In this document: one piece after another, positions 47,905 to 52,040 of the stretch
Position numbering within the stretch: position 1 is the first letter of the stretch
Layout of the letters: each line of letters opens with the position of its first letter
Source of the DNA: Flavisolibacter longurius
GTDB lineage: Bacteria > Bacteroidota > Bacteroidia > Chitinophagales > Chitinophagaceae
Assembly: GCA_013327885.1 (NCBI GenBank)
Contig: JABUMY010000007.1
Coordinates: 124,001-188,000 of the forward strand
Direction: 5' to 3'
Length of the DNA: 64,000 nucleotides
Position numbers and translations under genes: made by a program
The notes under the pieces: generated by a model
What the model was told of the DNA's origin: nothing
Seen by the model: only the letters and a program-made list of their open reading frames with translations
Database searches by the model: none

Positions 47905-48077
47905 ACGGTATTTTTTATTTTAGGTTTGATGACCCTGATTTGCAACGATCACTACTTTAGATTGACCGTCGCCTCCGACGAAGGCCAGCAATCATGTACT
48001 TTTTGTTTGTACGAAAGGCGGTTGGAGTAAGGTTGTCGAACACAACAGAAAGCGTCGGCAACACGGGTAAAAACCTG
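47905..48077. repeat. REP-like palindrome in the intergenic gap
   Basis: Imperfect hairpin cgtcg...cgacg at 47967-47980 followed by gacgaaggccagcaatc (47977-47993), identical to 49091-49107. This is the tail segment of the same REP-like family that flanks the ATPase-nuclease gene. No gene seen. Confidence 0.5.
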
Positions 48078-48938
48078 TCATTTCTTTAAAACGCCATTTG
48101 TATAATATTCCGTTCTCAACAGTTTCCCATCCGCTGAATAGGTTTTTGCATAACCGTGCATCACGCCGTTTTTGTATTCAATTTCCTGGGCCAGGGTACC
48201 GTCTTCGGCCCAGCTTTTATAAACACCTTCCTGCCTGCCCTTCACATAAAAAGCCTCCTCAATTTTGGTTCCGTTGGCATCAAACCAGGCGCAAACGCCA
48301 TCCATCACATCCTTGCTATTGTCAGTCGGATGAATGTAGCTAAGGCGGCCCTGCCATTGTTTTTTACCATCGATATAATAATCTTTTACCAGTCCTACCG
48401 GCTCACCGGCTGCATTTACCGTTACAACGCGGTAATAGGCGGCCGTAGCCTTGGCACTTACTTTCCAGTTCTTGTCGTAATAGATTGTTTTTTCTTTTGG
48501 CGCCGGTACGTCCAGGCTGTAAGGTTGAAACTCGCAGCCCCTTCGGGTAGGAATGTAAATAACATCGTAAGTTGTCATGCCGGCTTCTGCATAAACGCCA
48601 ATTTTGTCAACCTCGCCTATCTTGTTGATCTCTGTTGTGCCGAGTATGCGTGGCAAGCCATATTTGGCGTATTTTTTTCCATATAAGACTATCTTGTCAT
48701 TGTTGGTAAACCAGCTTTTGGTTTGTGCATAGTGAATGCCTGTTGGCGGGTAAACATCATTAAAGTCTTTCTTTGTACCATTTACCACCAGGGAATAAAT
48801 TCCGGTGGAAGGATCGTAGTCGGTAACAACCGTTTTCAAGGTTCCGTTTTCAATGACGCATTGCTGTACTTTTCGGGCTTGTGCCGTTGCCGTGAGGGTA
48901 ATGGTAAGAAAGGCAGCTACTATCAATAGGGACTTCAT
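48078..48938 (-). CDS. Secreted MORN/YwqK-like repeat protein (286 aa)
   Basis: Signal peptide MKSLLIVAAFLTITLTATAQA (an in-frame ATG one codon earlier, at 48941, is equivalent). The C-terminal part has MORN-type repeats: KIEEAFYVKGRQEGVYKSW, TLAQEIEYKNGVMHGYAKTY and LLRTEYYTNGVLKK, as in the YwqK family, which is often labelled antitoxin. No toxin partner is adjacent; the signal peptide argues against a cytoplasmic antitoxin role. Confidence 0.75.
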   Translation of the reverse strand: MKSLLIVAAFLTITLTATAQARKVQQCVIENGTLKTVVTDYDPSTGIYSLVVNGTKKDFNDVYPPTGIHYAQTKSWFTNNDKIVLYGKKYAKYGLPRILGTTEINKIGEVDKIGVYAEAGMTTYDVIYIPTRRGCEFQPYSLDVPAPKEKTIYYDKNWKVSAKATAAYYRVVTVNAAGEPVGLVKDYYIDGKKQWQGRLSYIHPTDNSKDVMDGVCAWFDANGTKIEEAFYVKGRQEGVYKSWAEDGTLAQEIEYKNGVMHGYAKTYSADGKLLRTEYYTNGVLKK

Positions 48939-49015
48939 CATTTGTTTTTAGAAGAGGCTAAAATAACTGAAAAATGCTTTTTACGCTAGCTGGCGTGGAA
49001 GGGTAGGACTGTTGG

Positions 49016-49107
49016 CTGCGTTTGCAACGCAGGACTGGATAATTTACAATTGGGTATTGGCTGGTTTAAAAAAGATAGGCCTTCGTCAGAGACGAAGGCC
49101 AGCAATC
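49016..49107. repeat. Two REP-like palindromes upstream of the ATPase-nuclease gene
   Basis: ctgcgtt-tgc-aacgcag at 49016-49032, and a perfect 10-base stem ggccttcgtc/gacgaaggcc at 49078-49100 followed by agcaatc. The second plus its tail is a reverse-orientation copy of the tgctggcc-hairpin motif seen at 51414-51439. The gap 48942-49261 holds no gene. Confidence 0.65.
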
Positions 49108-49261
49108 CTATGGTTTGATTTGTACTACCGTTATAAATGCTTATTTAGAACACTGCTGGCAGGGTTAAAGAAGACTACGGACAGCTCTGCGACCCGAGAC
49201 GACCCTTTATATTGATTATAAATCAGCAAATAATCACTTAATTTGTTATCAACCACTAACT

Positions 49262-51265
49262 ATGCAAATCGATCTACTAGGCAAAATCAAAGAAAAACGT
49301 CTCTCTTATAATAATACATTGCTGCCATTGTTTGAGGCTGTTGTTAATTCCATTCAAGCCATTGAAGATGGTAGTGCATCAAGGCCTGGCCTTATTTCAA
49401 TAGAAATTATTCGAGTGCCTCAAACTAATTTGGAGTTCAATGAAGTCACCCTTATAAGTAGACCCCCAGTATTAGACTTCATAATCCGTGATAATGGCAT
49501 TGGTTTCACAGATGAAAATTATGAATCATTTTATTTTGCGCATTCCACCTATAAACAAAACAGAGGCGGTAAAGGAATTGGTCGAATAATTTGGCTTCGT
49601 GCTTTTAATGTCGTGGAAATAGAAAGTGTTTATCCTGTCAATGGCACGTATCAGCACCGGAGATTTCAATTTTTGCCAACTAGAGATGGTGTTGAAAAGC
49701 ACGAACTAATTAAAGACTTAGCAAAACAAAAAAGGTTCACTGAGGTAAGACTTAAAGGCCTAAAGTCAGACTTCCAAAAATGGTGTAATACTGATGCAGA
49801 AGATATTGCTTTTAAAATTATTGAACATTGCTTTATCTACTTTATTCAAAAAGACTGCCCTCGGATATCTATAATAGATGGAGAAAATGAATTGGTCGTG
49901 AATGATTTATTTCACCTGTACACTAAGGACAAAGTCAATTCAAAAAAAATCAAAGTAAAAAAATTAAAGTTTGATGTTAAACTGGTAAAACTATATGGTC
50001 GAAAAGCTGACAATAAAATTCACTACTGTGCTCACACGAGAGAGGTGCAGAACGATAAAATTAGCTTAGAAATACCAGAACTTGACACCTTCTATACAGA
50101 TGAAAATGGAGAAAAATATTCTCTAGCAGCATATGTTACTGGAGATTATTTAAATACCAATGTTAATGAAGAAAGGACTGAAATTAATTTTATTAAGACT
50201 AATGACATGTATCCTGATGAAATTACCATAAGCGAATTGCGGGAAGCAGTTTGTGAGGTAATTCGAAAAGAATTCTCTAAACTAATAGAAAGTCTATCTG
50301 AAAACAGGCAATCAAAAATCAAACGATTTATCTCTGAACATCCACGTTACAGGCAACTTCTAAAATACAAGCCGAATGAAGTGAACAAAATTCCAAGTTC
50401 TTTTGACGGCGAAAAGCTTGAACTAGAGTTATTTAAAATTTTACAGAAACTAGAATTGGAAGTAAAGTCAGAAGCAGATGATCTTTTGAAAGGGCTAGAC
50501 AAGTTTGATAATCAAGCGGACTTCAAAAAAAGATATTCGGACTATTATAAAAAAATAATTGATGTTGGAAATGCTAAGCTATCCGAGTATATCGTATACA
50601 GAAAAGTTGTGCTTGACATTTTAGAAAAACAGTTGCAAAAGACAGACAATGGAAAGTTTGTTCCGGAGGCTAGCATACATAAACTTGTCTTTCCTTTGAA
50701 AAAGGAATCGGACGATATAGGATATGATGAACATAACCTTTGGATCATCGATGAAAGACTTGCATTTCACAAATATTTAGCTTCAGACAAAACATTTAAG
50801 CAACTTGATGAACTAGAGTCAATCTCTGATGACAGAGCAGATTTGATTGTATTTAATAAGCCGTTTGCTTTTTCTGATAATGAAAAACCTTACAGCTCAA
50901 TTGTATTGGTTGAATTTAAACGTCCAATGAGAGATGATTATGACGATGAAGAAAATCCGATAACTCAAGTTAACCGTTATGCTAGGCATATTATTGAAGG
51001 GAAAATAACTGATAAAAACGGTCGACAATTTGATATAAGAGAAAAGACACCAATATATGCTTATATCATTTGCGATCTCACGCCAAAGTTGCGCCTTTTT
51101 GCAAAGGACGCTGCGTATAAGGAATTGCCAGACAACGACGGCTTTTTTAATTACAATGACAATTATTCAATGTATGTTGAGATAATTAGCTTTGATAAAC
51201 TGGTAAGGGATTCTAAGCATAGAAATAAAGTACTTTTTGAAAAGCTTAACTTATCAAGTTTATAG
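49262..51265 (+). CDS. GHKL ATPase fused to a RecB-like PD-(D/E)XK nuclease (667 aa), candidate defence protein
   Basis: The N-terminal 110 residues carry a Bergerat ATP-binding fold: N box E25AVVN29SIQA, G1 D77NGIGF and G2 GGKGIG (102-107). A long charged helical region (about 385-480) follows. The C-terminal domain (about 480-650) has the nuclease pattern D527 in RADLIVF, E551-F-K553 in LVEFKRP and Q569VNRY573, matching the D...ExK...QxxxY signature of RecB/Cas4-type PD-(D/E)XK enzymes. Base composition differs from the neighbours (two sampled 60-base lines hold 16 and 18 G+C against 34 in a line at 47461), indicating horizontal origin. Flanked by REP-like hairpins, next to a Doc toxin pair. 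I do not recognise a named family. Confidence 0.85.
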   Translation: MQIDLLGKIKEKRLSYNNTLLPLFEAVVNSIQAIEDGSASRPGLISIEIIRVPQTNLEFNEVTLISRPPVLDFIIRDNGIGFTDENYESFYFAHSTYKQNRGGKGIGRIIWLRAFNVVEIESVYPVNGTYQHRRFQFLPTRDGVEKHELIKDLAKQKRFTEVRLKGLKSDFQKWCNTDAEDIAFKIIEHCFIYFIQKDCPRISIIDGENELVVNDLFHLYTKDKVNSKKIKVKKLKFDVKLVKLYGRKADNKIHYCAHTREVQNDKISLEIPELDTFYTDENGEKYSLAAYVTGDYLNTNVNEERTEINFIKTNDMYPDEITISELREAVCEVIRKEFSKLIESLSENRQSKIKRFISEHPRYRQLLKYKPNEVNKIPSSFDGEKLELELFKILQKLELEVKSEADDLLKGLDKFDNQADFKKRYSDYYKKIIDVGNAKLSEYIVYRKVVLDILEKQLQKTDNGKFVPEASIHKLVFPLKKESDDIGYDEHNLWIIDERLAFHKYLASDKTFKQLDELESISDDRADLIVFNKPFAFSDNEKPYSSIVLVEFKRPMRDDYDDEENPITQVNRYARHIIEGKITDKNGRQFDIREKTPIYAYIICDLTPKLRLFAKDAAYKELPDNDGFFNYNDNYSMYVEIISFDKLVRDSKHRNKVLFEKLNLSSL

Positions 51266-51410: not shown

Positions 51411-51439
51411 AATGCTGGCCGCAGTTTGCAACTGCGGCC
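51411..51439. repeat. REP-like palindrome downstream of the ATPase-nuclease gene
   Basis: aatgctggcc leads into a perfect stem ggccgcagtt (51417-51426) / aactgcggcc (51430-51439) with loop tgc. It is the same tgctggcc-plus-hairpin design as the element at 49078-49107, in opposite orientation. Confidence 0.65.
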
Positions 51440-51465: not shown

Positions 51466-51852
51466 TTACGCATTTTCCACGGTTTTTGTAAACTGCTTCA
51501 ACCAAGCCACTATTTCATCAAAAGTGATAGCCCCAGTTGAAATGTTGACGATAAATGAATAGAGTTCTTTAGAAGACGCCTGAAATGTATATTGGTGGTT
51601 GATCAGGAAACTCGCCATTGCCAACAAACCGGTTCGTTTATTGCCATCAACAAAAGGATGGTTTTTAATCAGGCTTTCACCAAGTGCAGCAGCTTTTTCA
51701 ATGGGGGTGGGGTACAAATCTTTGCCGCCAAAGGTTTGGAAAGGGCGGGCAATAGCAGCTTCCAGTAAACCGGCGTCTCTTACGCCATGTGAGCCATCAT
51801 AATCATTAATTGATCTTTCGTGCAGCAGTAAAATATCAGGCAGCAGAATCAT
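51466..51852 (-). CDS. doc: Doc-type Fic-fold toxin
   Basis: 128 residues with the Doc/Fic core motif HPFVDGNKRTG (catalytic His, Asp and the GNKR phosphate-binding loop). SHGVRDAGLLEAAIARPFQTF is typical of Doc-family proteins, which stop translation by phosphorylating EF-Tu. ATG 51852 overlaps the antitoxin stop by 4 bases, so the two genes are coupled and form a type II toxin-antitoxin pair. Confidence 0.88.
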   Translation of the reverse strand: MILLPDILLLHERSINDYDGSHGVRDAGLLEAAIARPFQTFGGKDLYPTPIEKAAALGESLIKNHPFVDGNKRTGLLAMASFLINHQYTFQASSKELYSFIVNISTGAITFDEIVAWLKQFTKTVENA

Positions 51853-52040
51853 TGTGCGAGCTTTTGCAATACATCGCCGTATTGCGCTTTTATGGCATCA
51901 TAGTTCTTCGCCAGGCTGGTATCTCCTATTTCATTTGCCGTTGCTGCTTCCAGCAGGGTTAAAACATCCTGTAATACCGTTTCATTCTCAAGCCTCGTAA
52001 TTTTCTTAATGACTTCCAGTTTCATTTCTGCGACACTCAT
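51849..52040 (-). CDS. Cognate antitoxin of Doc (63 aa)
   Basis: Short helical protein MSVAEMKLEVIKKITRLENE with an acidic, flexible end (YDAIKAQYGDVLQKLAQ). Its position before doc and the 4-base overlap identify it as the antitoxin. It does not look like classical Phd; the first half resembles other Bacteroidota short antitoxins that begin MSVAExKLE. A -7 box lies 18 bases upstream. Confidence 0.72.
   Translation of the reverse strand: MSVAEMKLEVIKKITRLENETVLQDVLTLLEAATANEIGDTSLAKNYDAIKAQYGDVLQKLAQ

Follow-up and report, generated by a model that had tools for sequence, protein, structure and literature searches.

The window considered here, a stretch of 64,000 nucleotides analysed as a whole, carries a solitary gene whose landmarks are collected in Table 1. 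The reading frame is intact and real and encodes a single 667-residue protein, in agreement with the preliminary description, and all the motifs listed there (E25xxxN29, DNGIGF, GGKGIG, D527, E551xK553 and Q569xxxY573) were found in the protein.

Table 1. Features of the gene and of its immediate surroundings in the window
Feature	Position	Strand	Basis or remark
Hairpin element (44 nt), first copy	47959..48002		75% alike to the second copy
MORN-repeat gene	48081..48941		between the two element copies
Hairpin element (44 nt), second copy	49073..49116		75% alike to the first copy
Terminator-like hairpin, not REP	49078..49100	-	reads as terminator-like on the - strand
Whole gene	49262..51265	+	667-aa GHKL...PD-(D/E)XK, paraMORC3 architecture; ORF (ATG at 49262, stop ends at 51265), 76-row alignment A2 and plasmid matches
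GHKL (Bergerat) ATPase, residues ~1-212	49262..49897	+	E25, N29, D77, G79, G81, G102, G105, G107; PF02518/PF13589 matches
Probable S5/transducer, residues ~207-320	49880..50221	+	profile A1 vs Mlh1 4p7a; invariant R305
Linker, residues ~321-439, presumed helical	50222..50578	+	poorly conserved, between two conserved modules
Predicted PD-(D/E)XK (Shedu-like) nuclease, residues ~440-667	50579..51262	+	E469, H473, D527, E551, K553, Q569; hhalign vs Shedu
Hairpin seen by eye	51417..51439		sequence differs from the upstream element
Fic/DOC-family neighbour, not part of the system	51469..51852	-	PF02661, E 7.3e-21
Fic/DOC gene with small upstream ORF	51469..52040		possible toxin-antitoxin pair

REP-like hairpins had been described as flanking the gene. 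However, both element copies detected in the 64-kb window with three or fewer mismatches (47977-47993 and 49091-49107) precede it, one before and one after the MORN-repeat gene. Genome-wide, the 17-base core occurs exactly twice and at two further places with 2 mismatches, and a backwards control pattern gave one. REP elements were rejected on the strength of these counts and of the different sequence of the downstream hairpin. The toxin-antitoxin pair that was claimed beside the gene is plausible: the Fic/DOC neighbour is present, but in its small partner no Pfam family passes the cut-off (AHD, E 0.0049), and this partner may be an unrecognised antitoxin.

The MORN-repeat gene occurs in its own genome only (1/18 same-genus genomes), and 13 of the 18, own genome counted, have the SAHH gene that lies beside the Fic pair. 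When the window genes between 43205 and 52040 were compared with the stretches of five relatives, no match was obtained at E 1e-5, ordinary genes included; since the ordinary genes are missing too, the region is to be read as a variable segment and not as an insertion site. Prophage cargo was rejected for this copy, a Pfam search of 8 neighbours having found no integrase. Eleven PADLOC models were matched among the 57 other genes of the window, each in one gene, with no complete system evident. Of five homologue loci compared, L085, L116, L135 and L136 share no neighbours with the present gene and L115 gave one unrelated match.

Conservation and predicted fold of the two modules

Conservation was assessed in an alignment of 76 rows (A2), comprising this protein and 75 homologues, nearly all full length, drawn from the best 80 of at least 515 relatives; L033, L034, L056, L080 and L081, with short, cut or broken frames, were omitted. 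The Bergerat residues E25, N29, D77, G79, G81, G105 and G107, the nuclease residues E469, D527, E551, K553 and Q569, and also R108, R305 and H473 are identical in 76/76 rows, while G102 is conserved in 75/76 and position 573 is tyrosine in 70/76, all within this sample of the best 80 of at least 515 relatives. The invariant E469xxxH473, which was missing from the earlier motif list, can provide the initial E of an E-D-ExK motif. The alignment indicates strong constraint on both the ATPase and the nuclease modules. The proposed union of a GHKL ATPase with a RecB/RE-fold nuclease is thus supported by conservation and by the profile comparisons that follow, as far as sequence can speak for fold.

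The family was further represented by a 14-row profile (A1), with L003 omitted. HMMER gave a weak match of PF02518 (HATPase_c) to the 667-residue protein (E 0.0071) and no meaningful match in NCBIfam; at E 0.1, PF02518 matches 11/14 family members (best E 3e-6), and PF13589 is found in 8/14. A search of PDB sequences returned no match for the protein and none for the profile of its nuclease half. The PHROGs search with the protein found none, and phrog_6203, which has no function assigned, appeared in 2/14 members.

With profile A1, Mlh1 (4p7a) was found at a whole-sequence E of 0.0078, its GHKL start and then its S5 stretch being aligned; taken singly, the two stretches are weak (E 46 and 0.37), the latter value belonging to the S5 stretch, where profile positions 207-318 lie over Mlh1 216-330. 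The larger profile A2 listed PomB (E 0.3) and PMS2 (E 1.2) from PDB, and not Mlh1. In the weak A1 match, R305 sits over the lysine of Mlh1 NVHPTK. In MutL this lysine is a catalytic finger. The A1 alignment suggests that the 667-residue protein may have a MutL-like S5 domain; the MORC-specific GhXhhpXXRhl motif, judged by eye, is absent around R305. The protein shares with MutL, Mlh1 and PMS2 the GHKL module, probably also an S5 domain with an invariant arginine over the Mlh1 lysine, but differs from them in that the sequence match is weak, the nuclease is of another kind and the gene is not a housekeeping one here.

For the nuclease half, residues 430-667 were compared by hhalign with an alignment of 16 Shedu proteins, giving a probability of 92, E 6e-7 and a score of 54.8. 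Against this score, 60 column shuffles reached at most 20.8, the reversed alignment 15.6 and an Mrr_cat alignment 12.3. The shuffles were run on 407 gap-filtered columns, the filter having been introduced because one of the first 30 shuffles gave an artefactual score of 133.5 from 20 columns at one end of the model, where gaps abound. The Mrr_cat control consists of 20 mechanically cut sequences, at least 3 of which are fragments of 67-93 aa and some of which have wrongly cut frames, so it is a weak test of specificity.

In the profile comparison, E469, D527, E551xK553 and Q569 align over the E, D, ExK and Q of Shedu, and the terminal EIISFDKL over Shedu EI-x-TYDEL; the nuclease core and a C-terminal EI-x-S/T-Y/F-D-x-L strand thus correspond by profile. 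There are also differences from Shedu (SduA, PF14082): the likeness is remote only, the N-terminal half has no match to Shedu (hhalign probability 0.1; 16 Shedu proteins sampled), and the Pfam SduA_C/DUF4263 model (PF14082) matches 0/14 members at E 0.1 and finds no match in the own genome at E 1e-5. By profile comparison, the predicted nuclease half is a remote relative of the Shedu nuclease.

Relation to described architectures

The preliminary description recognised no named system with this layout and took the gene for a candidate new one. It looks unnamed because the 2023 library of PADLOC (2.0.0) has no model for it, 0 models matching the 667-residue protein at E 1. The layout was nevertheless described in 2008 as paraMORC3 (PMC2292703), and the same domain order is anti-phage in VcSduA of 2025 (PMC12137116).

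According to Iyer, Abhiman and Aravind (2008), paraMORC3 combines GHKL-S5 with a C-terminal RecB-like RE-fold domain bearing E-D-ExK; its spread is wide but sporadic, prevalent in proteobacteria and Bacteroidetes, with a stand-alone subset lacking conserved neighbours mainly in these same two groups (PMC2292703). The present protein has intact ATP-binding GHKL motifs and a C-terminal E-D-ExK (E469, D527, E551xK553) whose RE fold is predicted from the Shedu profile match, and its gene is stand-alone and sporadic. Compared by the 2008 description, no separating feature was found, S5 being only suggested for the protein studied here.

VcSduA, from V. cholerae VSP-II, is reported by Adams et al. 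(2025) as a single-gene protein with an N-terminal GHKL and a C-terminal PD-(D/E)xK domain, with homologues in about 1.2% of genomes; it protects E. coli against Drexlerviridae and V. cholerae against X29, and with E27A and K557A protection was lost in E. coli (PMC12137116). Domain order and single-gene layout are the same here, with active-site E/K at 25 and 553 as against 27 and 557. The aligned positions are 27/556 in the homologue of a V. fluvialis plasmid (L006) and 27/558 in that of an Acinetobacter plasmid (L005). This closeness of numbering supports the link only mildly, because across the 14 rows of A1 the glutamate ranges from 6 to 35 and the lysine from 530 to 567. VcSduA differs, in a comparison by description, in that its authors assign it DUF4263 and tie it to paraMORC3 and Shedu type I-D (PMC12137116), whereas that Pfam model has no HMMER match in the family here.

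Among other systems, Tiamat shares the GHKL ATPase in a defence setting, and TmtA matched 1/14 members (E 0.0027), but the 667-residue protein itself has no TmtA match. MZA-type defence also uses a GHKL ATPase. No further characterised member of the architecture was found in the open-licence literature.

As the Pfam Shedu model found no match, the profile comparison with Shedu gave one, and both the GHKL motifs and E-D-ExK are present, we file the gene under the paraMORC3 architecture, probably working like VcSduA/Shedu type I-D, and do not call it a Shedu member. Most likely, on this comparison, it adds a further copy to an antiviral nuclease already known and is not a new kind.

Distribution, base composition and company of the homologues

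A scan of genome contigs yielded at least 515 relatives among at least 593 pattern matches, of which the best 80 were kept. These best 80 of at least 515 come from Bacteroidota, Bacillota, Pseudomonadota, Cyanobacteriota, others and two archaeal records (Ethanoperedens and ANME-1; L036, L038), whose homologues are closely similar. The closest among the matches listed, at 70% identity, belongs to a Chitinophagaceae MAG (L085). In the tree drawn from the best 80 of at least 515 relatives, the query falls in a clade of 20 rows, itself and 19 labelled Bacteroidota, with an SH-aLRT of 100. In whole genomes the gene is rare, occurring in 3/58 genomes drawn as relatives and 3/198 of the phylum, own genome counted in both. 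One of the 17 other same-genus genomes (G015) has a copy, which at only about 37% identity is not an orthologue kept by descent.

By tblastn, 57 plasmid records were matched, 48 of them covering 80% or more of the protein at a single site and all below 60% identity, together with one phage record in which the homologue lies beside an integrase. Viral contigs searched with the 667-residue protein gave no relative, a search that sees close relatives only; a comparison of the V. fluvialis gene with E. coli at the DNA level also found no similarity, distant protein homologues being beyond such a comparison.

The gene is A+T-rich, as had been claimed, with a G+C of 0.337, whereas its two flanks of 5 kb have 0.461 and 0.488. 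Of the best 80 of at least 515 relatives, 68 loci had enough flank for the same comparison, and in 67/68 the gene lies below its distal flanks (median difference -0.058); low G+C is therefore a trait of the family across hosts and not of the own genome alone. In the 56 of these 80 loci with enough large genes, G+C is below that of the large distal genes of the same locus in 55/56, against 23/56 for a random control gene, and third-position G+C is lower in 49/56 against 25/56 for the control.

Such patchy occurrence and low G+C are not those of a universally conserved housekeeping gene of normal composition, and they bear upon the reading of the gene as a host DNA-repair or mismatch-processing protein, that is, a MutL-like ATPase acting with its own endonuclease on host lesions. 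The N-terminal half weakly resembles Mlh1/PMS2 and the gene stands alone without fixed partners, both of which would suit this reading, and Iyer et al. raise recruitment to repair for versions in contexts other than restriction-modification (PMC2292703). The rarity of the gene, the divergent G015 copy, the copies on plasmids and a phage, the low G+C and the anti-phage action of VcSduA (PMC12137116) all speak against it, and we regard a repair role as very unlikely.

The preliminary description had proposed counting how often homologues lie beside known defence genes. On plasmids the association is visible: within 10 kb, defence genes (counted as restriction, CBASS, Abi, SIR2, TIR, ABC-three-component or Shedu) occur in 7/9 annotated loci (L005, L006, L008, L010, L011, L013 and L014), while at L004 and L015 the neighbours of this sort are limited to toxin-antitoxin-type or helicase genes. 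This count was made by eye from product names, with a list not fixed beforehand, on nine chosen, non-random records of the 57; two more plasmid loci carry no annotation and stand outside the nine. Control stretches on 7 of the 9 plasmids held defence genes in 0/7 cases, against 5/7 at the homologue on the same plasmids, one Fic gene, one HNH gene and unspecified methyltransferases being left uncounted in the controls.

Around chromosomal homologues, known defence genes are only weakly associated. Among mechanically called ORFs around the best 80 of at least 515 relatives, phage integrases make up 5/149 nearest and 2/107 distal genes, and the PADLOC matches, tallied by family and not by gene, came to 313 models for the nearest genes and 117 for the distal ones. 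The description of the gene as acquired defence cargo is thus supported by patchiness, plasmid and phage copies, low G+C and plasmid neighbours, but only weakly by the chromosomal surroundings.

On the V. fluvialis plasmid (L006:1806-12013), a type I restriction operon and a distinct Shedu gene stand directly before the homologue, which overlaps the end of the Shedu gene by a few nucleotides, so that two nucleases of related fold adjoin.

Proposed function and mechanism

The ATPase and nuclease sites, the Shedu relation, the patchiness, the plasmid and phage copies and the low G+C can all be read from sequence and lead us to regard the gene as mobile defence cargo. Its product is most probably an anti-phage nuclease of paraMORC3 type encoded on its own, similar to VcSduA, controlled by the GHKL module and related to Shedu, an assignment for which our confidence is good and which leans in part on analogy.

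A working mechanism can be proposed. ATP binding would bring the paired GHKL heads of a homodimer together as a clamp that encloses DNA, and R305, at the place of the MutL-family lysine, may read the gamma-phosphate. Closure would be relayed through the S5 stretch and the linker and would place the paired nuclease domains on the DNA. Invading phage DNA would then be cut and host DNA spared by some cue, which could be ends, topology or a phage protein, and ATP hydrolysis would reset the clamp.

A bolder version, which we put forward tentatively and consider rather doubtful, takes the GHKL dimer itself as a topology sensor, by analogy with MutL and type II topoisomerases. Clamp closure would test the geometry of the DNA (crossings, free ends, lack of host supercoiling) and would license the Shedu-type nuclease only on phage DNA, so that a single polypeptide might tell self from non-self by DNA shape, without methylation or a phage protein as trigger.

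Two variants of the defence reading have to be weighed. The protein could cause abortive infection or act as a collateral nuclease: ATP or a phage trigger would then set off indiscriminate DNA cutting, and the infected cell would die. Single-gene defence nucleases of this kind exist, and the layout is compatible with it. VcSduA, however, protected similarly at every MOI tested, from which its authors conclude that phages are targeted directly and the host stays viable (PMC12137116); this variant is in our estimation unlikely. Alternatively, the system may primarily exclude plasmids and other mobile elements rather than phages. The occurrence of copies on plasmids and on a phage, some of them next to integrases or recombinases, is in keeping with such a role, but VcSduA acts on phages (PMC12137116), and we hold this variant to be quite unlikely. 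Being variants of the defence reading, these two are not exclusive of the anti-phage assignment, and the likelihoods given should not be taken as shares of one whole.

With the anti-phage nuclease reading, a Bacteroidota clade is placed within the antiviral architecture of GHKL ATPase and Shedu-like nuclease, for which experimental support exists in one protein. The invariant residues make discrimination between phage and host DNA by the ATPase testable. The architecture is barely catalogued, with no PADLOC 2.0.0 model and no Pfam family beyond the weak HATPase_c, for which reason plasmid copies are often annotated just as 'ATP-binding protein' or 'hypothetical protein'. Given at least 515 relatives in one scan, many of these genes would receive a name from a dedicated profile. 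Annotation has also gone astray in the phage vB_RanS_PJN03, whose homologue (L007:2485-4509; 97% coverage) is labelled N-acetylmuramoyl-L-alanine amidase, probably a mis-annotation of a cargo gene of a temperate phage.
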